A DNA stretch of 64,000 bases from Gemmatimonadota bacterium (lineage in GTDB: Bacteria; Gemmatimonadota; Gemmatimonadetes; Palauibacterales; Palauibacteraceae). This document shows positions 2,418 to 19,379 of this stretch, piece after piece. How positions within the stretch are numbered: position 1 is the stretch's first letter; every line of letters begins with the position of its first letter. The notes below the pieces were generated by a model. It was not told the origin of the DNA and ran no database searches. It saw nothing but the letters and a program-made list of their open reading frames with translations. Both the position numbers and the translations under genes were made by a program. Location of the stretch: contig JAJEEM010000071.1 in NCBI GenBank assembly GCA_022820995.1, positions 1 to 64,000 of the forward strand, written 5' to 3'.

Positions 2418-2432
2418 CCTACTTCTCCCTGC
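2397..2432 (-). repeat. Tandem 18-bp duplication of ribosome-binding site and start codon
   Basis: On the minus strand the unit CAGGGAGAAGTAGGATGG is followed immediately by a second copy differing at one base (GAGAGG for GAGAAG). Each copy supplies a purine-rich ribosome-binding site and an ATG, and both ATGs (2417 and 2399) are in frame with the anti-sigma gene. The repeat also carries the stop codon of the sigma factor gene. It probably arose by slippage and would add six residues to the protein if the first ATG is used. Confidence 0.8.
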
Positions 2433-2964
2433 CGTCGAACAGTTCGGCGCGAAGACGCTTCAGCGCCTCCTGCCACCGCCTCTGGGAGGTCCTCTTCGAG
2501 ACCCCGAGCATCTCGGCGATCTGCCGGTGCGAGCAACCTTCCATTCCCCTGAGGACGGCCACCGTCCGCAGCTCCTCCGGGAGCACGGACAGCGCACGCT
2601 CCGCCGCGATCAAGTCCAGGACCGGGAACTCCGGAGAGTCCACCTGCGGCAGTTCGTCCAACGCCGCGCCAATCGGGATCTCGCGCCGCCGCTGCTCCGT
2701 TCTGACCCGGTCGAGGGCGGCGCGGGCCGTCACGGCACGAAGCCAGGGACCGAGCGGCCGAGCGCGGGCGAAACGACGGAGCGACCGCGGCAGCTTCAGG
2801 AACACGTCCTGAATCACGTCCCGGGCATCGGCCGACGACGCCGTCAAGCGGTACGCAAGGGCGAACAACCGCTCCGAATGCTCCTCGTATAAGGCTTCGA
2901 TCGCCTCTCGATCACCCCGCGCCGCCTTTCGCGCCAACCGCCGCTCCCGAGCCGAAGTGATCAC
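2419..2964 (-). CDS. ECF-type RNA polymerase sigma factor
   Basis: 181 residues, the usual size for an extracytoplasmic-function sigma factor. Region 2 lies at about residues 20-90 (LYEEHSERLFALAYRLT, DARDVIQDVFLKL) and region 4 at about 120-175 with the helix-turn-helix HRQIAEMLGVSKRTSQRRW. Starts at GTG 2964; a TTG nine codons downstream preceded by GGGAGC is an alternative. The gene is followed without a gap by the zinc-finger anti-sigma factor, the standard arrangement for self-controlled sigma/anti-sigma pairs. Subgroup and regulon cannot be read from sequence alone. Confidence 0.93.
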   Translation of the reverse strand: MITSARERRLARKAARGDREAIEALYEEHSERLFALAYRLTASSADARDVIQDVFLKLPRSLRRFARARPLGPWLRAVTARAALDRVRTEQRRREIPIGAALDELPQVDSPEFPVLDLIAAERALSVLPEELRTVAVLRGMEGCSHRQIAEMLGVSKRTSQRRWQEALKRLRAELFDGREK

Positions 2965-3830: not shown

Positions 3831-4967
3831 CTACTTCGTCCAGATCACGACGGCGCCGCACCTTGCGTCGGAGCCGGAGAACTCCGCCGGGAGCGACGCC
3901 GCACCCGTGTATACCTCGATCCCGGCGATTTCGGTCGGGAGGACGAGGTCGTTGATGGAGTCCCGGGGGTTCATGTCGCCGACAACTCCCGATGCGAGAC
4001 TCCAACGCTCGGCGCTTCCCCGAATGGCGAGGATGCCGTCGAGGTAGATGTTCAGCTTGCAACCCTGGTCCGAGAACCCTCGCGAGTGCGTCGTACTGTA
4101 GAGCTTGCAGCCGTGTCCGCGGAGCGTGCAGCCCGCGAGCCGGACCCCCGGTGCGTCCGCGACCATGTGCGTGATGCGCACCGGGTTTCGGCGCTCGATG
4201 TCCTCGGCCGTGAAGAACGTGCCGCCGCCAAGCTGCTCGCCCCAGTACTTGCGTTCGTAGAACCCCTTGATCTCCAGGCGGCGCGGTCTCGTCGCCGTGG
4301 CCACGATCGGCTCGAGTTCGACCGGGTCCGGGGTCAGACGCGCGTCGACCTCGGTCGTATGGCCCCGGGTCACGGTCACCGAGTGCGTCAGCGGCGAGAA
4401 TCCGATGTGCCGGAACGAGAGTTCGTGCTCGCCGACGGGAAGTCCGCTGAGCACGAACCGGCCGGTCCGGTTGCTCTGTACGACCGCCACACGGCTCCCG
4501 ACCGAAATCTCGGCCGCCACCACGGGCCGATGGGTCCGGGCATCGCGCACCTGGCCGACCACGCGCCCCGTCGTCATCTCCCCGAACAGGAGTCCGAGTT
4601 GGACTTCATGTGCCGCCCCCCGCTCGAGGGCAACCACGGCCTCTTCGCTGGAAGCATCGCCGAACTCCGCCCACAACGTGGCCTGTCCCGCGTCCCGGGG
4701 AACGCAGAGGACCAGCCGGCCGCTCCCATCCGCCTCCTCGCGCACGGGCTGGCGGACCGCGTCCGTCCAGCGCAGCACGACGGTAGCGCCCGGAATCGGA
4801 ACCAGCCCCGAATCGTCCGTCACGGTGATGACCAGCGAGGCCCGGTCGCCGCACTCGCCGCCCTGCGATGGCACGGCCTGGAGCGCGACGGCCGGATTGG
4901 CACCGAGGGAAAGAAGCACGGCCATCGAGGTGGCGACCGGGAGTGGGCGGCGGGTCATCGGCGACAT
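3831..4967 (-). CDS. Secreted carboxypeptidase-regulatory-like / TonB-plug protein, paralog 1
   Basis: 378 residues from the ATG at 4967, which has a GAGG site overlapping the stop of paralog 2; GTG 4976 is an alternative. A signal peptide covers about residues 1-30. Then come two beta-sandwich regulatory-like domains (from CGDRASL; second around GRVVGQVRDARTHRPV) and a C-terminal domain like the plug of TonB-dependent receptors, with the family signature RRLEIKGFYERK and the ending LPAEFSGSDARCGAVVIW. No beta-barrel follows, so it cannot be a complete transporter. Probably periplasmic or outer-membrane attached; function unknown. It shows the same architecture as four other genes in the window and is probably co-translated with paralog 2. 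Confidence 0.85.
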   Translation of the reverse strand: MSPMTRRPLPVATSMAVLLSLGANPAVALQAVPSQGGECGDRASLVITVTDDSGLVPIPGATVVLRWTDAVRQPVREEADGSGRLVLCVPRDAGQATLWAEFGDASSEEAVVALERGAAHEVQLGLLFGEMTTGRVVGQVRDARTHRPVVAAEISVGSRVAVVQSNRTGRFVLSGLPVGEHELSFRHIGFSPLTHSVTVTRGHTTEVDARLTPDPVELEPIVATATRPRRLEIKGFYERKYWGEQLGGGTFFTAEDIERRNPVRITHMVADAPGVRLAGCTLRGHGCKLYSTTHSRGFSDQGCKLNIYLDGILAIRGSAERWSLASGVVGDMNPRDSINDLVLPTEIAGIEVYTGAASLPAEFSGSDARCGAVVIWTK

Positions 4968-4977
4968 CGTCAACACC

Positions 4978-6006
4978 TCACTTTGTCCAGATTACGATGG
5001 CCCCGCAGCGTGTATCGGAGCCGCCGAACTCGGCCGGAAGCGATGCCGGCCCCTTGTATATCTCGACGCCCGCTACCTCCACCGGTAGGACGAGAGTGTG
5101 GATGGGGACGTCGCTCACATCGGCATTGTCGAGGAAGGTCTTGATGTTGCAACCCTCACCGGAAAACCCGGCCGACAGCCTCGTGCTGTAGAACTTCCCG
5201 TTCGGCCCCAACCGGATTCCAGACATGTCGGCGATCATGTGGGTGATGCGCTGCGGCCGCCGACGCTCAATGTCGGCTTCGGTGAAGAACGTGCCCCCGC
5301 TCACGAGTTCACCCCACAGCTTCCGCTCGTAGAACCCCTTGATCTCCAGGCGGCGAGATCTCGTCACGGTCGCCACGATCGGCTCCATTTCGACCGGCGT
5401 GGGCACCAGCCCGATGTCCACTTCCGTGGTGAGCCCGCGCGTCACCGTCACGGAGTGGCCAAGAGGGGCGTAGCCGATGCGTCGCACCTCCAACTCGTGC
5501 TGCCCTTCCGGGACGCCGGACAGAATGAACGCACCCCGCCGATTGCTCTCGGCCAGCCGGTTACGACCCCGGACCGAAACGGCGGCGGTGGCGACGGCAT
5601 CGCCCGTCACGCCATCGTATACGCGGCCGATGATCCGTCCCGACCGCACCTGCCCCAGACCGACGCGGAGTTCCACCTCGCTTGCGGCCCCGGGTTCGAA
5701 GACGACGACCGCCTGATCGCTCGTCGCGTCTCCCAACTCGGCCCAGAGCGTCGCCTCCTGCGCGTCGCGGGGAACGCAGAGGAAGAAGCTGCCCTGGGCA
5801 TCGGCGGCTTCACGCACCGGCCTCCGCCTCGCCTCGTTCCAGCGGAGCACCACGGTGGCCCCGGGCAGGGGGACGGTCCCGGATTCGTCCAGGACCGCGA
5901 CGCGGAGCGAAGCCCGGTCGCCACATTCGTCCCTGTCCTGTCCGGCGGCGGGCGTAACGGCAGCCAGCAGCAGCGATACCGCCGCGATCGTCATCGTCCG
6001 GGCCAT
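4978..6006 (-). CDS. Secreted carboxypeptidase-regulatory-like / TonB-plug protein, paralog 2
   Basis: 342 residues. ATG 6006 was chosen because GGAG lies nine bases upstream and it puts a clean signal peptide (MARTMTIAAVSLLLAAV) at the N-terminus; ATG 6015 lies too close to that site. Two regulatory-like domains are followed by a plug-like domain with RRLEIKGFYERK and the ending LPAEFGGSDTRCGAIVIW. Paired cysteines (CGDRASL, LCVPRDA, GCNIK, RCGAI) are shared with the other copies and could form disulfides in the periplasm. The second regulatory domain and the junction to the plug are nearly identical to paralog 3, implying recent duplication or gene conversion. Spacing to paralog 1 is 10 bases. 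Confidence 0.85.
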   Translation of the reverse strand: MARTMTIAAVSLLLAAVTPAAGQDRDECGDRASLRVAVLDESGTVPLPGATVVLRWNEARRRPVREAADAQGSFFLCVPRDAQEATLWAELGDATSDQAVVVFEPGAASEVELRVGLGQVRSGRIIGRVYDGVTGDAVATAAVSVRGRNRLAESNRRGAFILSGVPEGQHELEVRRIGYAPLGHSVTVTRGLTTEVDIGLVPTPVEMEPIVATVTRSRRLEIKGFYERKLWGELVSGGTFFTEADIERRRPQRITHMIADMSGIRLGPNGKFYSTRLSAGFSGEGCNIKTFLDNADVSDVPIHTLVLPVEVAGVEIYKGPASLPAEFGGSDTRCGAIVIWTK

Positions 6007-6044
6007 TCGCGTCATCTCCAGGCTGTGGGCAAGGCGCTCCACGT

Positions 6045-7076
6045 TTATTTCGTCCAGATCACGACGGCGCCGCAGCGCCCGCCGGAGCCGCCGAACTCCG
6101 CCGGGAGCGTCGCCGGGCCCTTGTACACCTCGACGGCGGCGAGCTGCGACCAGGGTATGTTTGGCCACCCACCCCACCCAACCCCATCGACGATGATACT
6201 CATCTTGCACGTCAAGCTCGAGAAACCTGCGCTCATGCGCCGATTGTTGCCCGACCAGGTGATCCCGGGGACGTTGCTCACGACAAGGAAGCGGGCGTTG
6301 CTGGGTCGCCACCGCTCGATGTACTCGGGCGAGAAGAAGTAGCCGTTTCCGGTCAGCTCACCCCAGTACTTCCGTTCGTAGAAGCCCTTGATCTCGAGCC
6401 GGCGCAGTCTCGTCACCGTCGCCACGATCGGTTCCATCTCGACGGGCGTCGGCACCAGACCGATGTCCACTTCCGTGGTGACGCCCGGCGTCAGGTCGAT
6501 CCGATGGCGGAGCGGGGCGTAGCCGATGCGTCGCACCTCCAGATGACGCACGCCGGGCCGCACGTCGCTGAGGATGAACCGGCCCTGCCGGTTGCTCGCG
6601 GACTCCTGCGCGTGACCCGTCACGGATACCGCCGCCGTGGCCACCGGCTTCTCCGTCATCGCATCGTACACGCGACCGATGAGGCGCCCCCGGCGAACCT
6701 CGGACAGGAGCACCCGGAGTTCGACCTCCCGCACCTCTCCGGGCGTCAGGGCCACGGTCGCCTGTTCGCTCGAATCGTCGCCCAGTTCCGCCCACAGCAC
6801 CGCTTCCGTCGCCTGCGGAGGGGCGCAGAGCAGGAAACGCCCCTCCGACCCGGCCGTTTCCCGCAGCGGTCTCTCCTCGACATCGGACCAGTGGACCACC
6901 AGCATGGCGCTGGGGATCGGAATGGCGCCGGACTCGTCGACGACGGTCACCTGGAGAGAAGGCCGGTCCCCGCACGTTTCATCTTGCGCCAGCACGGGCC
7001 TGGGCGAGGCCCCGAGGAGAAGGGAGAGGGAAACGACCGCCGCCGGCTTGGCTCCGAACATGGTGATCGCTTTCAT
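6045..7076 (-). CDS. Secreted carboxypeptidase-regulatory-like / TonB-plug protein, paralog 3
   Basis: 343 residues from ATG 7076 (MKAITMFGAK), giving a signal peptide that ends near VLAQ. Same layout as the neighbours: CGDRPSL opening domain, second regulatory-like domain (GRLIGRVYDAMTEKPV), then the plug-like region with RRLEIKGFYERKYWG. The plug part is the most divergent in this cluster: the usual FFTAEDIERR motif reads FFSPEYIERWRP, and several Gly/Trp-rich insertions (GWGGW) occur near the end. It lies 38 bases from paralog 2 and 62 bases from the upstream outer-membrane protein, consistent with one operon. No barrel domain. Confidence 0.85.
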   Translation of the reverse strand: MKAITMFGAKPAAVVSLSLLLGASPRPVLAQDETCGDRPSLQVTVVDESGAIPIPSAMLVVHWSDVEERPLRETAGSEGRFLLCAPPQATEAVLWAELGDDSSEQATVALTPGEVREVELRVLLSEVRRGRLIGRVYDAMTEKPVATAAVSVTGHAQESASNRQGRFILSDVRPGVRHLEVRRIGYAPLRHRIDLTPGVTTEVDIGLVPTPVEMEPIVATVTRLRRLEIKGFYERKYWGELTGNGYFFSPEYIERWRPSNARFLVVSNVPGITWSGNNRRMSAGFSSLTCKMSIIVDGVGWGGWPNIPWSQLAAVEVYKGPATLPAEFGGSGGRCGAVVIWTK

Positions 7077-7138
7077 CGAGGTTCGTGGCACGCTCGAACG
7101 CGAGGCTCGGCTCCAAGACGGTTCGGGCCGGAACAACG

Positions 7139-7771
7139 TCACTTCATCTTCAACACCACGCCCACCTGCAGGGACAGAAGGCGCGTGTACTCCTTCCCCT
7201 CGACCGTGAGGCCGATTTCGGGGGGAGGATAGTCGATGACGTCCTTGAGTCCGTACGAGTAGAGCGCATCGAAACCGATGAGGAGGCCGTCCGCGATCCC
7301 GTAGTTGAGCCCGAGCCCGCCCGCCAATCCGTAATCCACGGCCTCGGCCCCCGGATCCGAACCTTCGCACAGCCCGGGACCGAAGGTGCCGGAGGCGTCG
7401 CACGCCACCTTGACCGCGAACCACGGACCCGCCCGGACCCCGAGAGACACCCTGTCGCTGCCGACGACCGACCGGGCGACGAGCGACGACGCCTGCAGAT
7501 AATCGATCGAGCGGCGACCCGTCCACTCCTGGCCCCCCGCATAATACCGTGTCTTCGTTCCCGTGGCTGCGTACGACACTCCCGGGCGCAGGGACAGGCC
7601 CGCGCTCAACGGAAACCCGACGTCCACGCCGACCGCGGGCGCGATGATCGGGTCGCCTCCGTTTCCCACGATGGATGAGATCGCCATGCCCGCCCGGAGC
7701 GCGACATCCTCCTGCGCCGCCAGCGGCGAGGCCAGCAGGATGCCGGTCGCGATGATGAGTTTCGTCCTCAC
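7139..7771 (-). CDS. Small outer-membrane beta-barrel protein
   Basis: 210 residues. GTG 7771 is preceded by GGGGAGGGG and gives a typical signal peptide (RTKLIIATGILLASPLAAQ). The mature part shows alternating hydrophobic and polar residues with many Gly and aromatic positions and ends in LSLQVGVVLKMK, as in 8-stranded OmpA/opacity-type or porin-like barrels. It is placed upstream of paralogs 3, 2 and 1 with short gaps, so it is likely co-transcribed with them. A physical partnership between this barrel and the barrel-less plug proteins is possible but is inference only. Confidence 0.75.
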   Translation of the reverse strand: MRTKLIIATGILLASPLAAQEDVALRAGMAISSIVGNGGDPIIAPAVGVDVGFPLSAGLSLRPGVSYAATGTKTRYYAGGQEWTGRRSIDYLQASSLVARSVVGSDRVSLGVRAGPWFAVKVACDASGTFGPGLCEGSDPGAEAVDYGLAGGLGLNYGIADGLLIGFDALYSYGLKDVIDYPPPEIGLTVEGKEYTRLLSLQVGVVLKMK

Positions 7772-7852
7772 GTCCCCTCCCCTCGTCGCGGTGAAATCCC
7801 GGTCGGCGGCCGTCGCCGCTGGATGATGCGACCGCACTGCCCATACGCCTCC

Positions 7853-8055
7853 GGGCGGTAGAGGGTCCGCGGGGACGGCCTTCGGCGCGTCGATGTAGCG
7901 TCCCACCGTCGCGGTATTGATCGCGAGGCTGCGGGCCAGTTCAGAGGTGCGGAGAAGCCCGCCCTGCCAGTGGGCGAGCCCGAATGAAGTGCTTGGAAGG
8001 CGAAGCTGTCTTCACCGCTGGCGGCCAGGAAGCGGTCGGGCAGACCGCCCCGAAC
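7853..8055 (-). pseudogene. Relic of an AAA/DUF4143-type ATPase
   Basis: Two minus-strand fragments in different frames match the signature region of ATP-binding DUF4143 proteins. First, VRGGLPDRFLAASGEDSFAF (from 8055), equivalent to the family's RGGFPxSFLAxSD segment. Second, LAHWQGGLLRTSELARSL and TATVGRYID (about 7977-7885), equivalent to MLAHxxGxLxNxSELAxSLGVsxxTVxRYLD. The segment that normally joins them is deleted and the frame shifts near 7978. No Walker motifs and no C-terminal half remain. The gene is clearly dead. The last codons run into one copy of the 33-bp direct repeat. Confidence 0.65.
7861..7893. repeat. 33-bp direct repeat, copy A
   Basis: Starts GAGGGTCCGCGGGGACGGCC and ends in GGCGCGTCGA. 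It matches positions 8132-8164 at 31 of 33 bases in the same orientation. In copy A the sequence forms the tail of the DUF4143 relic. Confidence 0.85.
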
Positions 8056-8076
8056 CCCGCTCCCCTGGGTATCTCC

Positions 8077-8118
8077 ATCCTTGCAATTCATCTAGTGCAC
8101 TACGTGATTTGCAAGGAT
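8077..8118. promoter_or_regulatory. 42-bp nested palindrome (operator or recombination site)
   Basis: Arms ATCCTTGCAA (8077-8086) and TTGCAAGGAT (8109-8118) are perfect inverted repeats, and the same centre (8097.5) carries a second perfect palindrome, TAGTGCACTA (8093-8102). Eighteen of 21 half-site positions pair. It is noticeably more AT-rich than its surroundings and lies between the end of paralog 4 and the outer-membrane protein gene. There is no T run, so it is unlikely to be a terminator. Candidate roles are binding of a dimeric regulator or a recombinase target. Confidence 0.7.
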
Positions 8119-8131
8119 ACGACAGGAGAGG

Positions 8132-8164
8132 GAGGGTCTGCGGGGACAGCCTTCGGCGCGTCGA
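8132..8164. repeat. 33-bp direct repeat, copy B
   Basis: Second copy of the 7861-7893 sequence, with two substitutions, 271 bases away and in the same orientation. The two copies bracket the DUF4143 relic and the 42-bp palindrome, consistent with a small insertion or duplication event. Confidence 0.85.
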
Positions 8165-8206
8165 ACGGCCCGCAGCTGGTAGTCCCGGCGCGGGGCCGAG
8201 CAGAGG

Positions 8207-9325
8207 TCATTTGGTCCAGACGGCAACCACGCCGCATCTCGAATCGGATCCCCCGAATTCGGCCGGGAGCGACGCTGGCCCCTTGTACACTTCTACTCCG
8301 GCCACCTCGATCGGAAGTACAAACGCGTCGAGGTCGAGACCGACCCTTACGTTGTCCAGATAAACGCTTAAGCGACAGCCCGCACGGGCATTATGGAGCC
8401 CCCTCCGGATGCTGGGAAGCTCTTCGATCATGTGCGAGATTCGCAGCGGGTTCCGGCGCTCGATGTCTTCGGCCGTATAGAAGGTCCCGAGGCCGAGCAA
8501 CTCCCCCCAGTGCTTTCTCTCATAGAAGCCCTTGATCTCCAGCCGGCGCGACCGTGTCGTCGACACCACCAGCGGCTCGAGTTCCACCGGCTCCCGCACA
8601 AGGCCAACCTCCAGCTCGGTCGTGCGGCCGCTGGTCACGTCGACCGCGTGGCGAAGGGGCGCGTAGCCGAGCCGCCGGACCCGGAGTTCGTGCCGGCCGG
8701 CCGGCACGCCGGTCAGCCGGAACCGTCCCTGTCCGTCGCTTGCGGATTCCGCCGGCCGGCCGACGACGCTTACGGCCGCCGTCGCCACGGGACGGCCGGT
8801 CTCCCTGTCCACCAGGCGCCCGATCAGACGTCCCGATGGCACCGAACTCAGGATTCGCAGCCGGACCTCGCGCTCCTCCCCGGATACCAGCGCCGCGGGT
8901 GCGGCCTGTCCGCTCGAATGGTCCCCGAACTCCGCCCAGACGACCGCCTCAGTCGCGTCGCGCGGAACGCAGACGCGAAGGCGACCGTCGGCATCCGCAG
9001 CCTCGCGCACCGGCATGCGCTCCGCATCGGTCCAGCGAAGAACCACCGTGGCTCCGGGCAGCACGATGCTCCCGGACTCGTCCAGCACCGTGACGAGAAG
9101 AGAGGCCCGATCCCCGCAGTCCGCCTCCTGTCCCGCAGCCGCAGTCGCGCCGACCGCGAGCGAGGAGGCAACGATCAGCGCAGCGAAGACGAAAGATGAG
9201 ACGATAGAGACTCGCCGCGTTCGGCGTGGCTCGTAACGGGGACCTCCGGGTTCGTCGCCCAAGGCCGTTCCTTTCGCTTTGTGCGGCGCAGGTGTGCTCT
9301 GGTCGCGGACACATGCCTCCAGCAT
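8207..9325 (-). CDS. Secreted carboxypeptidase-regulatory-like / TonB-plug protein, paralog 4
   Basis: 372 residues from ATG 9325. This start leaves about 45 residues before the hydrophobic signal segment (SFVFAALIVASSLAVGA). A TTG at 9262 preceded by AAAGGA would give a more usual signal peptide and 351 residues, matching the paralogs, and may be the true start. The domains are the same: CGDRASL regulatory-like domain, second domain (GRLIGRLVDRETGRPV), plug-like domain with RRLEIKGFYERKHWG and the ending LPAEFGGSDSRCGVVAVW. It sits 29 bases after dctM on the same strand, so it may be read through from the TRAP operon. No barrel. Confidence 0.83.
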   Translation of the reverse strand: MLEACVRDQSTPAPHKAKGTALGDEPGGPRYEPRRTRRVSIVSSFVFAALIVASSLAVGATAAAGQEADCGDRASLLVTVLDESGSIVLPGATVVLRWTDAERMPVREAADADGRLRVCVPRDATEAVVWAEFGDHSSGQAAPAALVSGEEREVRLRILSSVPSGRLIGRLVDRETGRPVATAAVSVVGRPAESASDGQGRFRLTGVPAGRHELRVRRLGYAPLRHAVDVTSGRTTELEVGLVREPVELEPLVVSTTRSRRLEIKGFYERKHWGELLGLGTFYTAEDIERRNPLRISHMIEELPSIRRGLHNARAGCRLSVYLDNVRVGLDLDAFVLPIEVAGVEVYKGPASLPAEFGGSDSRCGVVAVWTK

Positions 9326-9354
9326 AGGACGCCGCCCGAGAGCCGGGCGTCACA

Positions 9355-10638
9355 TCAGTGGTAGAAGACGTTCACCAGGGCGAGGGGGATCGCGGGCACG
9401 TACGTGACGAGGAGCAGGACGGCGACGAGGACGGCGACGAAGCGGAGGTTGACCTTGCTCACCTCCCAGATGTCCGCCTTCGCGACGGAGCAGGCGGTCA
9501 CGAGCACGCTCGCCACCGGGGGCGTCTGCTGGCCGATGCCGAGGTTGAGCGTGACGATGAGGCCGAAGTGCACGGGGTCGATCCCCGCCGCGCGCACGAG
9601 CGGCATCACGATGGGGACGACGAGGATGATCGCCGCGGCCGAGTGCAGGAAGAGGCCGATGACGAGGAAGAAGACGTTGAGGAGCGCGAGGATGAGCCAC
9701 TTGCTCTCGGTGAGCCCCATGATCCCGGCCGCGACCTGCTGCGGGAGCCGCTGTTCCGTGAGGTAGTCGCCGAGCAGGGCGGAGGTCGCGACGAGGAGCA
9801 TGACGACGGCGGTCTGCACGCCGCCCTCGAGCATCGCCTCGCGCAGGTGGGCGAGGTCGAGTTCCCGGTAGATGAGACCGCCCACGACGAGCGACGCGAC
9901 GACCGCGAGCCCCGCCCCCTCCGTCGCCGTCACCCAGCCGCTGAAGATCCCGCCGAGGATGATCGCCGGCAGGAGGAGGGCCCAGCCCGCCTCGCGCGCC
10001 GTCGTCCACACGCGGCGGAGTTCGAACCGTCCCTCGACCGGGAAGTCGTGGCGGCGGGCGTAGAGCCAGGCGACGAACATCAGCAGCAGACCGCCGAGCA
10101 CGCCGGGCACGATTCCGGCGACGAACAGTTCGACGACCGAGGCCTCGGCCATGACGCCGTACAGGATCATGGGGATGGACGGGGGGATGATGACGGCGAG
10201 CGTGGCCGAGGAGGACATCACGGCCGCGGCGAAGGGCGTCCGGTAGCCGCGCTTCTTCATGGCCGGGATGAGGATCGAGCCGAGGGCGGCGACGTCGGCC
10301 ACGGCGGAGCCCGAGATCTCGGCGAAGAAGAGGGAGGCGGAGATGCCGACCATCGAGAGGCCGCCGCGGATGAACCCGACGAGCGCGGAGGCGAAGGCGA
10401 TGAGCCGGCGCGAGATCCCGGTCGCGTTCATGATCGCGCCCGCGAGGATGAAGAGCGGGATCGCGATGAGCGGGAACGAGGTCGCTCCGTCGAACAGCAC
10501 GAGGCCCGCATTCGGGAGCATGGCGAAGCCGCCCGAGGCGAGCATCGCGACGAGCGCGACGATCCCGAGCGCGACCGCGATGGGGATGCCGAGGGCGATG
10601 AGGAGCAGCAGGCCGACGAAGAGCGCGAGGAGCGTCAC
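9355..10638 (-). CDS. dctM: TRAP transporter large permease subunit
   Basis: 427 residues, almost entirely hydrophobic with about 12 membrane segments, the standard size for DctM. It forms the ion-coupled translocation channel in the inner membrane. GTG 10638 overlaps the stop of dctQ as GTGA, which fixes the start. Recognisable family blocks are GIPIAVALGIVAL near the N-terminus, FAEISGSAVADVAALGSILIP about residue 110, and LNLGIGQQTPPVAS near residue 370. Downstream by 29 bases is plug-protein paralog 4. Confidence 0.95.
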   Translation of the reverse strand: MTLLALFVGLLLLIALGIPIAVALGIVALVAMLASGGFAMLPNAGLVLFDGATSFPLIAIPLFILAGAIMNATGISRRLIAFASALVGFIRGGLSMVGISASLFFAEISGSAVADVAALGSILIPAMKKRGYRTPFAAAVMSSSATLAVIIPPSIPMILYGVMAEASVVELFVAGIVPGVLGGLLLMFVAWLYARRHDFPVEGRFELRRVWTTAREAGWALLLPAIILGGIFSGWVTATEGAGLAVVASLVVGGLIYRELDLAHLREAMLEGGVQTAVVMLLVATSALLGDYLTEQRLPQQVAAGIMGLTESKWLILALLNVFFLVIGLFLHSAAAIILVVPIVMPLVRAAGIDPVHFGLIVTLNLGIGQQTPPVASVLVTACSVAKADIWEVSKVNLRFVAVLVAVLLLVTYVPAIPLALVNVFYH

Positions 10639-11153
10639 GGCTCCCCCTCCCCGGCCGCGACCGTCTCCGAGCGGGCGTCCTCCGGGGAAAGGGCGTCCTC
10701 GGGGGCAAGCGCGTCCTTCAGGCTCAGCAGCTGCGCGAGGATGAAGAGGACGGCCCCGATGGGGATCACGGACTGCGCCAGCGCGGCGGGCACGGAGGGC
10801 AGGCTCACGAGCGTCGTCCCCTCGAGCACGCGCACGACCTGCCAGCCGGCCCACGCGACCGCCGCGAAGAAGGCGATGATCGCGCCCTCGGCCACGAGCA
10901 CGACGGCGATCCGGGCACGCCCCGTCAGGCGCTGGGTCAGCGTGGGCACGCCGATGTGCGCCCGGCGGAGCGCCGCGAGCGCGGCCCCGTAGTAGGTGAG
11001 CCAGGCGAGGAGGATCGACGCGACCTCGTCGTACCACACGAGCGCCGCCCCCGCCTTCCGGAACCCGACGCCCACGACGACGACGGTGGCGAGCGCCGCC
11101 AGGAGGACGAGCACCGCCCCCTCGAGGAAGCGCCGGACGCCCGTCTTCACCAT
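10635..11153 (-). CDS. dctQ: TRAP transporter small permease subunit
   Basis: 172 residues with four predicted membrane helices and the DctQ-type motif DEVASILLAWLTYYGAALA. It pairs with DctM in the inner membrane. ATG 11153 lies seven bases after the dctP stop, and its own stop overlaps the dctM start. The C-terminal tail contains a short acidic repeat (ALAPEDALSPEDA) with no obvious role. Confidence 0.92.
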   Translation of the reverse strand: MVKTGVRRFLEGAVLVLLAALATVVVVGVGFRKAGAALVWYDEVASILLAWLTYYGAALAALRRAHIGVPTLTQRLTGRARIAVVLVAEGAIIAFFAAVAWAGWQVVRVLEGTTLVSLPSVPAALAQSVIPIGAVLFILAQLLSLKDALAPEDALSPEDARSETVAAGEGEP

Positions 11154-11160
11154 GGCCCGG

Positions 11161-12183: not shown

Positions 12184-13349
12184 GCCCCGGCCAGGAAGTC
12201 GGCGGCGGCGGACAGGCCGCCGGGTTCGTGCGCGATTCCGCTCGTCTTCAGTCCCATTTCCACCCCGGCCAGCGCTCCCATCAGCGTGAGTTCGTTGAGG
12301 TCCCCGAGGTGTCCGATCCGGAACACCTTCCCCTTGAGGGGGCCGAGACCCGTCCCCAGCGACATGTCGAAGCGTTCGAGCACGGCGAGACGGAACGCGT
12401 CCGCGTCCTCCCCGTCCCCCACCATCACCGTCGTCCCGGCGCTCGACACCGCCTTCGGGTCCTGACAGTAGTTGCGCAGACCCCAGGCGGCGACGGCGCG
12501 GCGCGTGGCCCCGGCGTGGCGGGCGTGGCGGGCGAAGGTGGCGTCGGCCCCCTCTTCGCGCAGCATCGCGAGCGACGCCTCGAGCCCGTAGAGGAGCGTC
12601 GTGGGCGGCGTGTATGGAAAATAACCGCCCTCGTTGTCCCGCAGCATCGCCGTCCAGTCGAAGTAGGAGCGCGGCGCCTCCGGCCCCGCGCGGTGGCGGG
12701 CGAGCGCCTTCTCGCTCACGGCGCAGAACCCGAGGCCGGGCGGGAGCATGAGTCCCTTCTGGGAGCCGCAGACGGTGACGTCCACGCCCCACTCCGCCTG
12801 CCGGTAAGGGGTGGCGGCGAGCGAGGAGACGGCGTCGACCATGAGGAGGGCGGGATGGCCGGTTTCGTCGAGCGCCTCGCGCACGGCGGCGATGTCGCTC
12901 GTCACGCCGGTCGAGGTCTCGTTGTGGACGACGAGCACGGCGCGGATCCGCCCCTCCCGGTCGTCCGCGAGCCGCGCCGCGATCCTCTCCGGGTCCGCCG
13001 GGCGCCGCCAGTCCCCGTCGATGGCCTCCACCCGCAGGCCGAGGTCCCGTCCCACCTCTCCCCACTTCGAGGCGAAGAACCCGTTGTTCCAGAGGAGGAC
13101 GCGGTCGCCGGGGGAAAGGACGTTGGCGAGCGCGCTCTCCCAGCACCCGGTCGCGGAGGAGGGGAAGATGAAGACGTGCGCGGGGTCTCCGAACACCCAT
13201 TTGAGTCCCTCGAACAGGCCGAGCACCATCTCGCCGAACGCGGGTCCGCGGTGGTCGATGACGGACCGGTTCATGGCCTGGAATACGCGCTCGGGCACCG
13301 GGGTCGGGCCCGGAAGCTGGAGGAAGTGTCTTCCGCCGCGGTAGGTCAA
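12180..13349 (-). CDS. Serine/alanine--glyoxylate-type aminotransferase (class V)
   Basis: Fold-type I PLP enzyme of the SGAT/AGAT group. The N-terminus GRHFLQLPGPTPVPERV and RSVIDHRGPAF are diagnostic; the PLP lysine lies in VCGSQKGLMLPPG (about residue 195), and VDAVSSLAA carries the Asp that contacts the PLP ring. TTG 13349 gives 389 residues, the family size; the frame stays open to TTG 13412. Likely reaction: amino transfer from serine or alanine to glyoxylate. It is the first gene of the TRAP operon (ATGA overlap with dctP) and lies back to back with the FAD/Fe-S dehydrogenase. Cytoplasmic. Confidence 0.88.
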   Translation of the reverse strand: MTYRGGRHFLQLPGPTPVPERVFQAMNRSVIDHRGPAFGEMVLGLFEGLKWVFGDPAHVFIFPSSATGCWESALANVLSPGDRVLLWNNGFFASKWGEVGRDLGLRVEAIDGDWRRPADPERIAARLADDREGRIRAVLVVHNETSTGVTSDIAAVREALDETGHPALLMVDAVSSLAATPYRQAEWGVDVTVCGSQKGLMLPPGLGFCAVSEKALARHRAGPEAPRSYFDWTAMLRDNEGGYFPYTPPTTLLYGLEASLAMLREEGADATFARHARHAGATRRAVAAWGLRNYCQDPKAVSSAGTTVMVGDGEDADAFRLAVLERFDMSLGTGLGPLKGKVFRIGHLGDLNELTLMGALAGVEMGLKTSGIAHEPGGLSAAADFLAGA

Positions 13350-13351
13350 AG

Positions 13352-16300
13352 GTGGCTCGCTCTTGTCAGGTCGGGGCTTCCGCCGATACAACTTGGCTCG
13401 TGACCCGCCCAATCTCTCACGACCGCGCCGGTTCGCAACGGCCCCGGCCCGGACCCGACGCTCGACGCGAGGCTCGGCTCGAAGCTCGACTTCGGGCGGG
13501 GCTCCGGGGAGAGGTCCGGTTCGACCGGTTCACGCGCGGGCTGTACAGCACGGACGCCTCGATCTACCAGGTCGAGCCGCTGGGGGTCGCGTTCCCGGAA
13601 TCCGCCGGCGACGTGCGGCGGGCGGTGGAACTCGCCGGCGAGCACGGGACGTCGGTCGTCGTGCGGGGGGCGGGGACGTCGCAGAGCGGCCAGTCGATCG
13701 GGCGGGGGGTGATCCTCGACACGAGCCGGGGGCTGGACGGGGTGCTCGACTTCGATCCGGCCGCCCGGCGCGTGGTCGTCGAGCCGGGGATCGTGCTGGA
13801 TCGGCTGAACGCGTTCCTGCGGCCGCACGGGCTCTTCTTCCCCATCGACGTGGCGACGGCGAGCCGGGCCACGCTGGGGGGCATGGCCGGCAACAACAGC
13901 GCGGGGTCGCGGTCGGTGCGGTACGGCCACATGGTCGAGCACGTTCGCGGCATCGACGCGGTGCTCGCGGATGGTCGACGGGTCGAGTTCCGCCGCGACG
14001 CCCCGCCGGGCGCGGCGCCCGGGGGCGGGCTCGGAGCCGACATGCGGGCGCTCTACCGGCGCGAGGCGGAGGAGCTGGCGCGGCGGGTGCCGGATGTCCC
14101 GCGGCACGTGGCCGGGTATGCGCTGCACCGTCTGGGCCGGGAGGGCACCGGGCTCTCGGATCTTCTCGTGGGTTCGGAGGGGACGCTCGCGCTCTTCACC
14201 GCGCTCGAACTCGACCTTCAGCCCATTCCCGCCGTGCGCGCGCTCGGCGTGTGCCGCTTCGATGGGACCGGCGAGGCGCTGGCCGCGGTTCCGGCGATCG
14301 TCGCGCTCGAGCCGACGGCGGTCGAACTGTTCGACGCGACCGTCCTCGGGCTGGCCGCGCAGATGCCGAGTTTCGAGCGGGTGCTCCGGCAGCTCGGCGA
14401 GGACGGGAGCGGCCCGCCGCGCGACATTCTCGTGGTGGAGTTCGCCGGGGACGACCCGGAGCGGGTCTCGACCTCCCTCTCGCGGCTCGAGTCCGTGCTG
14501 GGCGGGATCGCCGTGGGCGTCACCCGCGCGGAATCCCCCGACTTCCAGGCCCGCATCTGGGCGATGCGCAAGGCGGGGCTCAGCATTTCGATGTCCCGGC
14601 CCGCCGCGCGCAAACCGCTCGCCTTCATCGAGGACTGCGCGATCCCGCTCGTACGGCTGCCGGAGTGGTATCGCCGGCTGACGGAGATCATCGATCGCCA
14701 CGCCACCCACGCCGTGTGGTACGCGCACGCGTCCGTCGGCTGTCTCCACGTGCGTCCGGCGCTGGACCTGCGGGATGGGGACGACGTGGAGCGGCTGCGC
14801 GCGATCGCGGTGGACGCCTTCGCGCTCGCGGGCGAACTGGGCGGCTCCCATTCCGGCGAGCACGGGGACGGCTGGATTCGGTCGGAATTCCTCGAGCCGA
14901 TGCTGGGTGCGCGCCTCGTCTCGGCTTTCGGAGAGATCAAGCGCCGGTTCGATCCGGAGGACGTCCTGAACCCGGGGAAGATCGTCGACCCGCCCCGCAT
15001 GAACGAACCCTCGCTCCTGCGGGCCCGCTACGGGCTGGAGACCCGAAGGCTGCCGACGGCGCTCGACTGGGGAGCGTGGGGCGGCTTCTCGCCGGCCGTC
15101 GACATGTGCAACAACAACGGGACGTGCCTCAAGCGGAGCCCCGGCGTGATGTGCCCGTCCTTCCGCGCCACGAACGACGAGCGGCACTCCACGCGCGGGC
15201 GCGCCAACGCCCTGCGGCTGGCGCTGTCGGGACAGCTGGGGGAGGACCCGTGGACGTCGCCGGAACTGTACGAGGCGATGGACCTCTGCCTGGGCTGCAA
15301 GGGGTGCCGCCGCGAGTGTCCGACGGGCGTGGACATGGCGCGCATGAAGGTGGAGTTCCTGCACCGCCTGCGCGCCGAGCAACCGCTCTCGCCGCGGGAC
15401 CGGGCGCTCGCGTACCTCCCCCGCTACGCGCCGCTCGTCTCGCGCGCGGCCCCGCTCGTCAACCTGCGGAACCGGATCCCCGCGCTCGCCCGCCTCGGGG
15501 AACGCGTCGGGGGTCTGGCGGCGGACCGGCCTCTCCCGCGCTGGTCGTCGCAGCCGTTTTCCCTGCCCTCCCGGCCTCCCGCCGCGCTTCCCTCCCCGAT
15601 TCCCGCCCAGATTCCCACCCAGGGGAACGGCGCGCCGAGTGTCGCGCTCTTCGTCGACACCTTCACACGCTATTTCGAGCCCGAGAACGCCCACGCCGCC
15701 GTTCGCGTGCTGTCGAGGGCGGGCTACCGGGTGGAGGAGGCCGTCACGGCGGGCCGACCGCTGTGCTGCGGGCGCACCTTCCTCAACGCGGGTCTCGTCG
15801 AGGAGGCGCGGACTGAACTCGACCGCACCGTCCGCGCGGTGAACCGGTTCATCGAGCGGGGGATTCCCGTGGTGGGACTCGAACCGTCGTGTCTCCTCAC
15901 GCTGCGCGACGAACTGCCGGCGCTGGACCCGGGGCCCGAGGCCGCGGCGGTCGCGGACCGGGCCCGGCTGCTGACCGAATGGCTCGTCGACGCTGCGGCG
16001 CTCGACCGGCTCGACCTCGCTTTCCTCCCCGTCCGGCGCGTCCGCGTCCACGGCCACTGCCACGAGAAGGCGTTCGGCGCGGACGGCCCGACGCTGGAAG
16101 TCCTCCGCGCGATCCCCGACCTCGAGGTCCAAGCGATCCCCGCCGGGTGCTGCGGCATGGCCGGCTCGTTCGGCTACGAGGCGGAACACGCCGAAGTCTC
16201 GCGGCAGGTCGCCGAACTCGAACTCCTCCCCACCGTCCGCGCGCTCGCCGACGACGAATGGCTCGTCGCCAACGGCACAAGCTGCCGCCACCAGGTCGCC

Positions 16301-16363
16301 GACCTCGCCGACGCCACGGCCCGCCACGTCGTCACCGTCCTCGACGCCGCCACCGAAGCTTGA
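13352..16363 (+). CDS. FAD-linked oxidase fused to Fe-S (CCG-domain) reductase, 2-hydroxyacid dehydrogenase type
   Basis: 1003 residues. The N-terminal half is a PCMH/VAO-type FAD domain (VVRGAGTSQSGQ about 103-114, GGMAGNNSAGSRSVRYG) with a GlcD-like C-terminal lobe (GGSHSGEHGDGWIRSE). Two 4Fe-4S motifs follow, near 585 (CNNNGTCLKRSPGVMCPS) and near 646 (CLGCKGCRRECP). Two CCG cysteine-rich domains end the protein (CCGRTFLNAG about 805, CCGMAGSFGY about 933). This is the layout of YdiJ-like D-2-hydroxyglutarate or D-lactate/glycolate dehydrogenases, feeding electrons to the membrane pool. GTG 13352 has a weak TAGG site; GTG 13400 is a possible later start. It is divergent from the aminotransferase/TRAP operon with essentially no intergenic space. 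Confidence 0.9.
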   Translation: MARSCQVGASADTTWLVTRPISHDRAGSQRPRPGPDARREARLEARLRAGLRGEVRFDRFTRGLYSTDASIYQVEPLGVAFPESAGDVRRAVELAGEHGTSVVVRGAGTSQSGQSIGRGVILDTSRGLDGVLDFDPAARRVVVEPGIVLDRLNAFLRPHGLFFPIDVATASRATLGGMAGNNSAGSRSVRYGHMVEHVRGIDAVLADGRRVEFRRDAPPGAAPGGGLGADMRALYRREAEELARRVPDVPRHVAGYALHRLGREGTGLSDLLVGSEGTLALFTALELDLQPIPAVRALGVCRFDGTGEALAAVPAIVALEPTAVELFDATVLGLAAQMPSFERVLRQLGEDGSGPPRDILVVEFAGDDPERVSTSLSRLESVLGGIAVGVTRAESPDFQARIWAMRKAGLSISMSRPAARKPLAFIEDCAIPLVRLPEWYRRLTEIIDRHATHAVWYAHASVGCLHVRPALDLRDGDDVERLRAIAVDAFALAGELGGSHSGEHGDGWIRSEFLEPMLGARLVSAFGEIKRRFDPEDVLNPGKIVDPPRMNEPSLLRARYGLETRRLPTALDWGAWGGFSPAVDMCNNNGTCLKRSPGVMCPSFRATNDERHSTRGRANALRLALSGQLGEDPWTSPELYEAMDLCLGCKGCRRECPTGVDMARMKVEFLHRLRAEQPLSPRDRALAYLPRYAPLVSRAAPLVNLRNRIPALARLGERVGGLAADRPLPRWSSQPFSLPSRPPAALPSPIPAQIPTQGNGAPSVALFVDTFTRYFEPENAHAAVRVLSRAGYRVEEAVTAGRPLCCGRTFLNAGLVEEARTELDRTVRAVNRFIERGIPVVGLEPSCLLTLRDELPALDPGPEAAAVADRARLLTEWLVDAAALDRLDLAFLPVRRVRVHGHCHEKAFGADGPTLEVLRAIPDLEVQAIPAGCCGMAGSFGYEAEHAEVSRQVAELELLPTVRALADDEWLVANGTSCRHQVADLADATARHVVTVLDAATEA

Positions 16364-16379
16364 CCCGCCACGCTCCATC

Positions 16380-16407
16380 TAACTAGATTTATAACTAGTT
16401 TATTACG
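16380..16407 (+). promoter_or_regulatory. AT-rich promoter/operator of the VapBC pair
   Basis: TAACTAG occurs at 16380-16386 and again at 16392-16398, one helical turn apart (12 bp). The second copy is embedded in the palindrome AACTAGTT (16393-16400), followed by a TTATTA stretch. In a genome of this GC content such an AT island right before an antitoxin gene fits a promoter with autoregulatory antitoxin-binding sites. The exact -10/-35 hexamers could not be assigned. Confidence 0.5.
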
Positions 16408-16434
16408 GACTTGGGTCGGAAGGCAGGGCACCAG

Positions 16435-16677
16435 ATGCGCGAAGTCGGCACCTTCGAAGCGAAGACGCACCTCTCCGCTCTCCTTGAGGCGGTCTCCGCG
16501 GGCGAGAGCGTGATGATCACGAAGAGGGGGCGCCCCGTAGCGCGACTGGTTCCTCCCAACACGCTCGACCGACAGGCAGTGGACGCGGCGATCGCGAGAC
16601 TGAAGGCGTTGCGCGAGCGACATGGCAGTCTCTCGGTCGAGGAAATCCTCGCCTTCCGGGATGACGGCCGCCGGTGA
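16435..16677 (+). CDS. Phd/YefM-type antitoxin
   Basis: 80 residues from ATG 16435, preceded by AGGCAGGG; TTG 16411 is an upstream alternative. Family signature at the N-terminus: MREVGTFEAKTHLSALLEAV and GESVMITKRGRPVARLVP, the DNA-binding part. The C-terminal tail (LRERHGSLSVEEILAFRDDG) is the flexible toxin-neutralising segment. It overlaps the PIN-domain toxin gene as GTGA, the usual antitoxin-first arrangement, and is likely autoregulated via the AT-rich repeats upstream. Confidence 0.9.
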   Translation: MREVGTFEAKTHLSALLEAVSAGESVMITKRGRPVARLVPPNTLDRQAVDAAIARLKALRERHGSLSVEEILAFRDDGRR

Positions 16678-17114
16678 GGTCCGCCGTCATCGATGGCTCT
16701 ACGGCCGTGGCCTGGGCGATGATGGATGAACCCTCGGCCGACGCGGACTTCGCGCTCGAACAGGTCAGGGTCCATGGCGGCGTGGCTCCGCAGCTCTGGT
16801 GGGCGGAACTGCGCAACGCCCTGCTGGTCGCGGAGCGACGGGGACGCACGACGCCCGCCATCACGGACACGGCACTCACCGCCCTCGAGACGCTCCCCGT
16901 GCAGCTGGACTACAAGCCGAATGGGCCGCTGGTGCTGCGACTCGCAAGAGCGCATTACCTCACGATCTACGACGCGCTCTATCTGGAGCTGGCGCTGCGC
17001 GAGAACCGTCCCCTGGCGACGCTGGACCGCAAGCTCGCGCGGGCCGCCGAGGCGGAGGGGGTTGAACGGCTGTGTGCGGCTACGCGGCGAGCATCTCCCG
17101 TAGCCGGCCCTTGA
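16674..17114 (+). CDS. vapC: VapC-type PIN-domain ribonuclease toxin
   Basis: 146 residues. GTG 16674 overlaps the antitoxin stop. PIN-domain acidic residues are all present: Asp in VIDGSTAVAW (residue 7), Glu in WWAELRNALL (about 45), Asp in TIYDALYLELA (about 99) and Asp in LATLDRKLARAA (about 117). They would coordinate Mg2+ for RNA cleavage. The 3' end overlaps the convergent thioesterase gene by 35 bases. The intact active site suggests a functional toxin. Confidence 0.92.
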   Translation: MRSAVIDGSTAVAWAMMDEPSADADFALEQVRVHGGVAPQLWWAELRNALLVAERRGRTTPAITDTALTALETLPVQLDYKPNGPLVLRLARAHYLTIYDALYLELALRENRPLATLDRKLARAAEAEGVERLCAATRRASPVAGP

Positions 17115-17517
17115 GAGGCGGCGGGATCTCGATCCCCTGCCAGTCCTGGCTGCCGTGTTCGCGGCGGGCGCAGACGACGGTCCAGTCGCTGCGGGCCACG
17201 ACTTCCCTGCCGCCGGCGCGTTCGACCGTGAAGTCGGCGGCGTAGCGGATCGCCTTGCGGCGCACTTCGCGCACCCGGAGTCTCACGTCGACCTCGTCGC
17301 CGTAGCGGACGGCGCCCAGGTAGTCGCAGGAGACGGAGACGCGCGGCATCCCGAACACGGAATCCTCGCCCCAGCGAAAGCCGACGAGGTCGAACGACCG
17401 GTAGAGGGCGTGCTCGGCCTCCTCCATGAACTTCAGGAGCGCCGTGAAGTGGATGAGGTTCGCGGTGTCCGTATCCGCGAACTCCACGCGCCGCGTGTAG
17501 ACGAACTCGGAAGCCAT
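17080..17517 (-). CDS. Acyl-CoA thioesterase, 4-hydroxybenzoyl-CoA/YbgC hot-dog family
   Basis: 145 residues from ATG 17517 (MASEFVYTRRVEFADTD). The hot-dog signature with the catalytic Asp is FADTDTANLIHFTALLKFME; normal proteins read YxDTDxxGxVxHxxYLxFxE, so the Gly-Val part is replaced by Asn-Leu. The rest is an ordinary single hot-dog domain. Probably hydrolyses an acyl- or aromatic-CoA in the cytoplasm; the substrate is not evident. Convergent and overlapping with vapC; divergent from the esterase gene. Confidence 0.82.
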   Translation of the reverse strand: MASEFVYTRRVEFADTDTANLIHFTALLKFMEEAEHALYRSFDLVGFRWGEDSVFGMPRVSVSCDYLGAVRYGDEVDVRLRVREVRRKAIRYAADFTVERAGGREVVARSDWTVVCARREHGSQDWQGIEIPPPLKGRLREMLAA

Positions 17518-17583
17518 CCTGCAATCTATCACCCTTCGAACCCTGGCAGCCCGCGATTCGGAGTCGGCGGGCCGGGAGGCGCA

Positions 17584-18249
17584 GTGGCGGTTGAACCCAG
17601 ACACATCACGATTGAGCGGCGCGTGCGATTCGCCGTGCTCGAGCCGCACGAGCGGCCGGTAACCGAGATCTGGTTCGCCCTGCACGGATACCACCAACTC
17701 GCCCACCGCTTCCTGCGCTACTTCCAGGCGATTCACGAGGGCGCGCGGTGCATCGTCGCCCCCGAGGGTCTGCACCGTCACTACATCGAACACGAGTCGC
17801 GCAAAGTGGGCGCCTCGTGGATGACGAGCGAGGACCGCCTCACGGACATCGAGGACTACGTCGGCTACCTCGACCGGCTGCACGCGCACATCCTCGCCGA
17901 GGAGTCACGACAGACGTCAGGCGGGTCGGCGCCCCCGCGGATCGTCGGACTCGGCTTCTCCCAGGGGGTCCACACCCTCTGCCGCTGGCTCGCGTTCGGC
18001 CGCGCCCGCATCGACCGGGCGATCCTGTGGGGCTCCACCGTCCCGCCCGACCTCGACCTGAGCGAGCACGGGGACACGCTCTCCGCCGCCGACCTCCACC
18101 TCGTGGTTGGGGATGGGGACGAGTACTTCGACCGACCCGCCATCGAGGCCCATGAGGCGCGCCTCCGGGCGGCGGGCGTCAGCTTCACATCCCACACCTA
18201 TCCCGGCGGACACCGCCTGGACGCCGGGACCCTGCGGCGGCTCGTCTGA
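17584..18249 (+). CDS. Alpha/beta-hydrolase, phospholipase/carboxylesterase family
   Basis: 221 residues from GTG 17584, which has GGAGG four bases upstream. The nucleophile motif GLGFSQGVHTLCRW (Ser about residue 126), an Asp in VVGDGDEYFDR and the His in YPGGHRLD near the C-terminus form the expected triad. WFALHGYHQ near the N-terminus is the oxyanion-hole region. It resembles the YpfH/predicted-esterase group. No signal peptide, so cytoplasmic. The substrate is unknown. Confidence 0.82.
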   Translation: MAVEPRHITIERRVRFAVLEPHERPVTEIWFALHGYHQLAHRFLRYFQAIHEGARCIVAPEGLHRHYIEHESRKVGASWMTSEDRLTDIEDYVGYLDRLHAHILAEESRQTSGGSAPPRIVGLGFSQGVHTLCRWLAFGRARIDRAILWGSTVPPDLDLSEHGDTLSAADLHLVVGDGDEYFDRPAIEAHEARLRAAGVSFTSHTYPGGHRLDAGTLRRLV

Positions 18250-18251
18250 AC

Positions 18252-19379
18252 TTATTTCGTCGTGATCACGACGGCGCCGCAGCGGGCGTCGTAGCCGGAG
18301 AACTCGGCCGGTAGCGACGCACCTCCCGTGTACACCTCGAGCCCCTCGATCTCGACCGGGAGGACGAAATCGTTGACGGTCTCGTTCACATTGCTCATGC
18401 GGGTCATTCGCAGGATCGGAAGCGGCACCTCTTCGGCGGCATGACGCTCGTCACTCCCGCGGATGACCAGGGTCCCGTCAATGTAGACGTTCAACTTGCA
18501 ACCCTGGCCCGAGAACCCCGCCGATGCCCTTGTGCTGTACAGATGGCAGCCGTGCGCCTGCAGGCCGCAGTTGCCCAGCCTGACTCCGGGAACATCCGCG
18601 ATCATGTGGGAAATCCGCATCGGGTTGCGGCGCGCGATGTCCTCCGCCGTGAAGAACTCGCCGCCACCCGTGAGTTCCCCCCACTCCCTGCGTTCGTAGA
18701 ACCCGGTGATCTCCAGGCGCCGGGACCTCGTGGCGACCGCAACCAGCGGCGCCAGTTCCACCGGGTCCGGCGACAGCCCGATCATGGCCTCGGTCGTGAG
18801 GCCTCGCGCGACTATCACTTGCTGGACCAGAGGCGCGTAGCCGAGGTGCCGAACCGAAAGCTCGTGCTCGCCCACCGGCAGCCCGCTGAGCACGAAGTAC
18901 CCGCGGTTGTTGCTCTGTGCCGCCTCGGGCCGGCCCGGTACGGACACCGAGGCCGCGGCGACGGGCCGGTCGTTCCGCGCATCCCGCACTTGCCCGAGGA
19001 CGCGCCCGGTGGCCGAAGTTCCGAACAGAAGCTGGAGTTCGACCGCGGTCGTCGCGCCGGGACGCAGGGTTACCGACGCTTCCTCGCTCGAGGCGTCGCC
19101 GAACTCGGCCCACAGGACAGCCCCCTGCACGTCGGGCGGAACGCAGAGCACGAGCCGTCCCTCGGCATCCGCAGCCTCCCGGACCGGCCGCCCCTCCGCC
19201 GCCGACCAGCGGACCGCCACCGCCGCGCCCGGGATCGGAACCAGCCCGGAATCGTCGCGCACTTCCACCGACAGCGATCCGCGGCCGCCGCACGCAGCCT
19301 CCTGCAGCGCTCCGATGGGTCCGGCGCCGACCACGACCAGCATTGCCGCCATCCACACGGCGAGCGACCCCACCCGCAT
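18252..19379 (-). CDS. Secreted carboxypeptidase-regulatory-like / TonB-plug protein, paralog 5
   Basis: 375 residues from ATG 19379; the start overlaps the stop of the upstream 73-residue membrane protein (TAATG). Signal peptide to about residue 26, then the CGGRGSL opening of the first regulatory-like domain, a second domain (GRVLGQVRDARNDRPV), then the plug-like domain with RRLEITGFYERREWG (Thr replaces the Lys of the other copies) and the ending LPAEFSGYDARCGAVVITTK. Closest to paralog 1, including the CGLQAHGCHLYST insert with paired cysteines. It lies about 9 kb from the other four, so the family was dispersed after duplication. No barrel. Confidence 0.85.
   Translation of the reverse strand: MRVGSLAVWMAAMLVVVGAGPIGALQEAACGGRGSLSVEVRDDSGLVPIPGAAVAVRWSAAEGRPVREAADAEGRLVLCVPPDVQGAVLWAEFGDASSEEASVTLRPGATTAVELQLLFGTSATGRVLGQVRDARNDRPVAAASVSVPGRPEAAQSNNRGYFVLSGLPVGEHELSVRHLGYAPLVQQVIVARGLTTEAMIGLSPDPVELAPLVAVATRSRRLEITGFYERREWGELTGGGEFFTAEDIARRNPMRISHMIADVPGVRLGNCGLQAHGCHLYSTRASAGFSGQGCKLNVYIDGTLVIRGSDERHAAEEVPLPILRMTRMSNVNETVNDFVLPVEIEGLEVYTGGASLPAEFSGYDARCGAVVITTK

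Follow-up and report, generated by a model that had tools for sequence, protein, structure and literature searches.

An expanded family of barrel-less TonB-plug proteins in one class of Gemmatimonadota, with a possible role as periplasmic TonB adaptors

The window analysed here is a 64,000-nucleotide stretch of a Gemmatimonadota genome of the Palauibacteraceae (GenBank assembly GCA_022820995.1, contig JAJEEM010000071.1, positions 1 to 64,000). Five of its genes encode proteins in which two carboxypeptidase-regulatory-like (CpR) domains and a TonB-box-like linker precede a plug domain homologous to that of TonB-dependent transporters, and which stop at the end of the plug. They belong to an old family found in one class of the phylum, which is under purifying selection, keeps or loses a pair of plug cysteines jointly and, in one lineage, is fused to the C-terminal domain of TonB. 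No member examined has a barrel. The best explanation, adopted here tentatively, is that these are soluble periplasmic TonB-box/plug adaptors binding TonB C-terminal domains and not half-transporters. The five genes and the parts of gene 1 are as follows.

3831..4967, minus strand: gene 1, 378 amino acids, in the order signal-like start, CpR1, CpR2, TonB-box-like linker, plug, stop
4584..4850, minus strand: CpR1 of gene 1, residues ~40-128, with C39 directly before it and C88 within
4332..4571, minus strand: CpR2 of gene 1, residues ~133-212, resembling the N-terminal extension (NTE) domain of SusC and the transthyretin (TTR)-like domain of carboxypeptidase D
4281..4331, minus strand: TonB-box-like linker of gene 1, residues 213-229, PDPVELEPIVATATRPR
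3834..4280, minus strand: plug of gene 1, residues 230-378, containing C303 and C370 and ending CGAVVIWTK, then the stop
4978..6006, minus strand: gene 2, 342 amino acids, architecture as gene 1
6045..7076, minus strand: gene 3, 343 amino acids, architecture as gene 1
8207..9325, minus strand: gene 4, architecture as gene 1
18252..19379, minus strand: gene 5, 375 amino acids, architecture as gene 1

All five are open reading frames (ORFs) on the minus strand at these coordinates and can be aligned end to end, with identities to gene 1 of 60% (gene 2), 50% (gene 3), 54% (gene 4), and 64% (gene 5). Pfam places two PF13620 CarboxypepD_reg stretches in each, and the N-termini appear signal-like by eye. 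The single architecture described in an earlier sequence-only reading therefore holds for all five genes, and its gene coordinates stand except at gene 4, where the ORF probably takes in extra sequence ahead of the signal peptide, with the true start further downstream. A lipobox-like pattern occurs in two of 70 family alignment rows, neither from the window.

By Pfam, gene 1 alone scores above the cut-off of the plug domain PF07715 (25.0 vs 23.9 bits), with the other four below it (E 0.002 to 0.026). The doubt this leaves is removed by a family profile, built from a 70-row alignment (A3) of 327 positions and searched against PDB chains, which matches solved TonB-dependent transporters across both CpR and plug. 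The best match is the TonB-linked outer membrane receptor 9gbc_A (E 1.2e-20), with profile positions 99-325 of 327 on chain positions 25-231. SusC 5t3r_D is aligned over profile 102-327 (chain 30-230), PirA over 218-326, while the match to BtuB is confined to 215-281. The motifs GFYER(K) and LPAEF..CG recur across the family, and R239, C303, E351, and C370 are invariant in all 70 rows. An AlphaFold2 model of gene 1 was obtained with a predicted local distance difference test (pLDDT) of 83.7 and a predicted template modelling score (pTM) of 0.47. Matches in a fold search with the whole model were filled by CpR domains and gave no test of the plug, so a relative in which the plug is joined to a TonB C-terminal domain (TonB_C) was folded instead. 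This relative, which is not a window gene, is predicted to contain a plug fold with SusC-like resemblance. The plug-like fold expected by the sequence-only reading is thus predicted in this relative. In two of the five window proteins the NCBIfam model TIGR04056 scores 11.6 and 12.5 bits, against a cut-off of 368; the other three give no match at E 1. The window genes share with the SusC/RagA family an NTE (CpR) domain before the plug, and with TonB-dependent transporters the plug itself, recognised by Pfam in gene 1, by the family profile, and in the model of the relative.

The stop codon lies at the end of the plug in all five window genes, and no 22-strand barrel follows. Across the class, the frame stops 0–20 residues past the plug in 40 of 40 hand-chosen members, five TonB_C fusions and three members near contig ends having been set aside. 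Among 29 other members the tail is at most 30 residues in 28, and the 29th bears a TonB C-terminal domain. The absence of a barrel is upheld by these data, and homologs continuing into a barrel, which would have marked the genes as truncations, are not among the members examined. A plug tree, made with a quick method on 152 columns, contains a branch with a Shimodaira–Hasegawa-like approximate likelihood ratio test (SH-aLRT) support of 100 which splits 20 same-genome "transporter" plugs from 71 barrel-less or fused plugs. The latter comprise 57 of the 70 A3 rows and 14 of 28 rows from an alignment of the fusions (A4), from which L119 and L123 were excluded as their sequences are cut short; one sequence was entered twice, as L058 (barrel-less) and as L096 (fusion). 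Sixteen of the 20 "transporter" plugs come from ORFs with a barrel row over the cut-off, one from an ORF whose barrel row is weak, and three from ORFs with none.

The ratio of non-synonymous to synonymous substitution rates (dN/dS) is 0.17–0.33 in 10 of 10 gene pairs. Within gene 1, CpR2 is slowest (0.06, 0.11), followed by the TonB-box segment (0.12 twice) and the plug (0.26 and 0.39). The position of the transporter plugs across one fully supported branch argues against recent truncation, and the common end point, separate old clade, and low dN/dS together point to maintained genes and not remnants. It is extremely improbable that the genes are truncated or decaying transporters. One copy in the genome is indeed split between two frames (L026 and L028 on C47); however, truncation or frameshift of transporters was ruled out by the constancy of the end point across the class, the single old clade, and the low dN/dS in every pair.

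The linker occupies the TonB-box position of transporters; same-genome transporters have DEIVVTG or QDIVVTG there and gene 1 has EPIVATATR. With an assumed background, conservation is 1.85 bits per column in the linker (residues 213-229), 1.38 in CpR1, 1.80 in CpR2, 1.65 in plug residues 247-300, and 2.53 in plug residues 347-378. The shared cysteines noted previously extend far beyond the window. C303 and C370 are both present in 70 of 70 family rows, and of 28 plug-TonB_C fusions 21 have both, seven have neither, and none has one alone, although these rows are related and represent fewer independent events. This joint retention or loss supports a disulfide. A second pair of loop cysteines would fit the rows as well, with both in 34 and neither in 36. 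Plug loops vary in length across the family, which suggests differing ligands.

One family of the class carries a fusion of the plug to the TonB C-terminal domain (PF03544), with at least 86 full-span rows and at least 72 genomes among the matches listed. The fusion was verified by Pfam and fold in one member. By eye, a signal peptide stands at the start of the fusions, and no TonB-like anchor and proline-rich stem were seen. The earlier suggestion that the plugs act as adaptors for TonB is strengthened by these proteins, although it is still inferred. A different joining is found at L133:14991-16928, where an M56 domain, TonB_C, and Plug occur in one protein without a barrel, with a second plug repeat visible by eye. 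The plug repeats of this protein resemble the genome's SusC-like plugs by eye, hence its origin looks separate from that of the window family. It lies within L133:13675-17331, where two TonB_C-bearing M56 proteins of BlaR1 type come after a BlaI-type repressor and one of the two has a Plug as well. These M56/TonB_C proteins have a match in eight of nine sampled genomes of the genus, at full length in four.

The window's genome is a 3.72-Mb draft, 94.7% complete, with Candidatus Palauibacter and other Gemmatimonadota as its named relatives. It holds at least 24 family genes, comprising 17 near the window architecture, one frame-split copy, and six variants; the family is therefore expanded, as first proposed, and far larger than five. 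The frame-split copy (L026 and L028, C47:159319-160360) is either a recent pseudogene or an assembly error. Among the variants are an open frame of 669 residues in which the CpR-plug module occurs twice, a form with a single CpR, and two genes with additional CpR domains after the plug. Only L027 of the six is above the Pfam Plug cut-off, and L031 has a weak plug match. The internal-plug genes with CpR domains on both sides (L133:10700-13673 and L222:2294-5057) each adjoin a beta-propeller-like gene. In whole-genome counts, which cover Gemmatimonadota genomes, 131 of 150 sampled genomes match at 1e-20, every one in a single class; there is no match at this threshold in 13 genomes of the class or in six outside it. 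With the A3 profile at 1e-10, 43 of 43 searched genomes of the order match, a count that may include CpR-only matches. In plasmid records, matches to gene 1 outside Gemmatirosa are listed as transporters, CpR proteins, or unannotated, and one Gemmatirosa match is a 484-residue frame ending one residue past the match. The cultured relative Gemmatirosa kalamazoonensis thus has a barrel-less member; a tentative TonB_C match also came up there.

Four further features of the window bear on possible partners.

216..2417, minus strand: 733-residue protein, after the sigma gene, with a zinc-finger-like N-terminus by eye; kept in the same four of 26 related loci as the sigma gene
2419..2964, minus strand: extracytoplasmic function (ECF) sigma factor, downstream of gene 1, with sigma domains by Pfam; kept in four of 26 related loci
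7139..7906: 255-residue barrel, not conserved
63015..63677: TonB gene, with TonB_C confirmed by Pfam

The TonB gene begins a row of TonB, ExbD-like, and ExbB-like genes (the latter two by eye) that reaches past the window end, and a small gene pair at 16411-17114 has the look of a VapBC-type toxin-antitoxin system by eye. The 733-residue protein is a probable anti-sigma factor, with no Pfam match at E 0.01.

It is proposed that the family derives from the periplasm-facing half of a SusC-like transporter, namely the CpR domains (the SusC N-terminal extension), TonB box, and plug, and would be held together by disulfides. The TonB box may bind the C-terminal domain of the cell's TonB proteins, such as that encoded at 63015-63677, or of the M56-TonB_C proteins; in the fusion-bearing family this contact could form within the chain. 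The variable plug loops would bind differing partners or ligands, among which may be the beta-propeller proteins encoded nearby at some loci, and each paralogue could couple one ligand to the common TonB machine, acting as a sensor or modulator and not a pore. A broader and more doubtful proposal is that Gemmatimonadota possess a pore-less branch of the TonB system, in which paralogous soluble plugs, every one with a ligand or partner of its own, are gripped in the periplasm by TonB_C, in cis in the fusion-bearing family and elsewhere in trans by TonB or M56-TonB_C membrane proteins; TonB would then be a device for sensing, or for sensing force, in the periplasm and not a motor for import.

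Several observations weigh against TonB adaptors. No adjoining TonB or propeller gene accompanies the five window genes, and 16 genomes of the window's own genus give no plug-TonB_C match at 1e-15. The TonB-box pattern, picked post hoc after the alignment was viewed, fits 67 of 70 rows; conservation is higher at the end of the plug than in the linker; and P stands in most family members at a linker position where five of the six same-genome CpR proteins shown have D. Both models have a low pTM (0.47 and 0.52) and do not fix the domain arrangement, and in the plug-TonB_C model no partner strand is assigned to the predicted TonB-box strand (residues 9-12). Finally, the association with propellers and the conserved ECF sigma neighbour could indicate partners other than TonB.

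A serious, if unlikely, alternative is that the plug and CpR domains have been reused as TonB-independent periplasmic or secreted proteins for binding, adhesion, or scaffolding, perhaps docking beta-propeller partners, and that the likeness to a TonB box reflects descent. CpR domains resemble pilin and adhesin domains, two genes have an internal plug followed by more CpR domains, loop lengths vary, and the plug of gene 1 evolves faster than CpR2. The propeller link emerged when 55 neighbour proteins from the genome's other family loci were compared mutually: seven of these, spread over four of 12 regions, proved to be beta-propeller proteins related to one another, and two reach or exceed the PF17170 cut-off. 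Of 33 PF17170 rows in the genome, eight have a family gene within 3 kb, against 1.0 expected (binomial P 5e-6), in a post hoc test on the same genome which assumes even gene placement and counts tandem genes separately. Plug genes have such 6-bladed beta-propeller (PF17170-like) genes nearby at L133, L136, L140, L143, and L222, while no PF17170 row falls on the window's contig. At G000:C30:4294-6240 a propeller match (4294-5463) directly adjoins a TonB gene on the same strand. Against TonB independence stand the linker, roughly as conserved as CpR2, and the plug-TonB_C fusion with its breadth of genomes. It is improbable that the plug proteins form cell-surface signalling devices together with the ECF sigma and the probable anti-sigma factor, resembling FecA-FecR-FecI minus the transporter. 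Both regulatory genes adjoin the cluster in the window and do so in four of 26 related loci; however, no sigma family recurs at the other family loci of the genome, where Pfam (1e-5) on 53 of the 55 neighbour proteins gave at most two matches per family (M20 peptidase alone), and the signalling domain STN is not found in the five window proteins at E 1.

Less likely than the two preceding rivals, and very improbable, is a two-piece transporter in which the plug protein inserts in trans into a separately encoded barrel. The plug core is retained, and separately expressed FhuA plug and barrel can restore activity. Nevertheless, PF00593 gives 19 barrel rows in the genome, of which 17 fall in ORFs that also have a Plug row; another is in an ORF with CpR and a plug-like stretch by eye, and the last is cut by a contig end. 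All four PF14905 rows also sit in plug-bearing ORFs. With these two barrel families searched in the 94.7% complete genome, there is no orphan TonB-type barrel save the ORF cut by the contig end. As TonB-type barrels carry their own plugs, binding of the window plugs to separate barrels, one of the roles first proposed for them, is unlikely. The 7139-7906 barrel, previously offered as such a partner, has no tblastn match at 1e-8 in 26 related loci, including L070 and L082, in which the whole interval from the DctM gene to the sigma gene is present; it is therefore ruled out as a conserved partner. Moreover, CpR domains or TonB_C placed C-terminal to the plug have no obvious fit within a barrel.

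A role as TonB adaptors would give the family a testable function. The plug is ordinarily the gate of an outer-membrane pore, pulled by TonB. A class-wide expanded family with gate and handle and no pore, in which one lineage joins the gate to its puller, suggests that the TonB-plug interaction can serve a purpose in its own right. Plug and plug-TonB proteins that are soluble and separate by nature would also provide material for biochemistry that is hard with membrane transporters. Plug, CpR, and TonB_C are known domains, but searches of the open-access literature turned up neither a barrel-less plug family nor a plug-TonB_C fusion, and no described function, in agreement with the sequence-only reading. 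The words TonB and plug are absent from the main text of the Palauibacterales paper (PMC10469786).

Among known systems, SusC/RagA-type transporters share, as judged from profile and fold, the N-terminal extension (CpR), the plug, and the TonB-box-like linker. The window genes differ from them in lacking a barrel, in having two CpR domains and a conserved cysteine pair, and in their separate plug clade. The linker of gene 1, EPIVATATR, is close to DQVVTATR, put forward in PMC6118199 as the TonB box in a Pseudomonas BtuB. TonB energy transducers (PF03544) have their C-terminal domain in common with the fusions of one family of the class, where it follows the plug, whereas the products of the window genes have no PF03544 match at E 1 and the fusions no TonB-like anchor or proline-rich stem by eye. 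BlaR1-type M56 proteins with TonB_C offer a parallel at L133:14991-16928 in also having a Plug without a barrel, but are membrane peptidases with plug repeats that are SusC-like by eye. FecA-type transducers, which act with ECF sigma and anti-sigma factors, recall the ECF sigma gene adjoining the window cluster, although the window proteins have no barrel and no STN domain was found in them.
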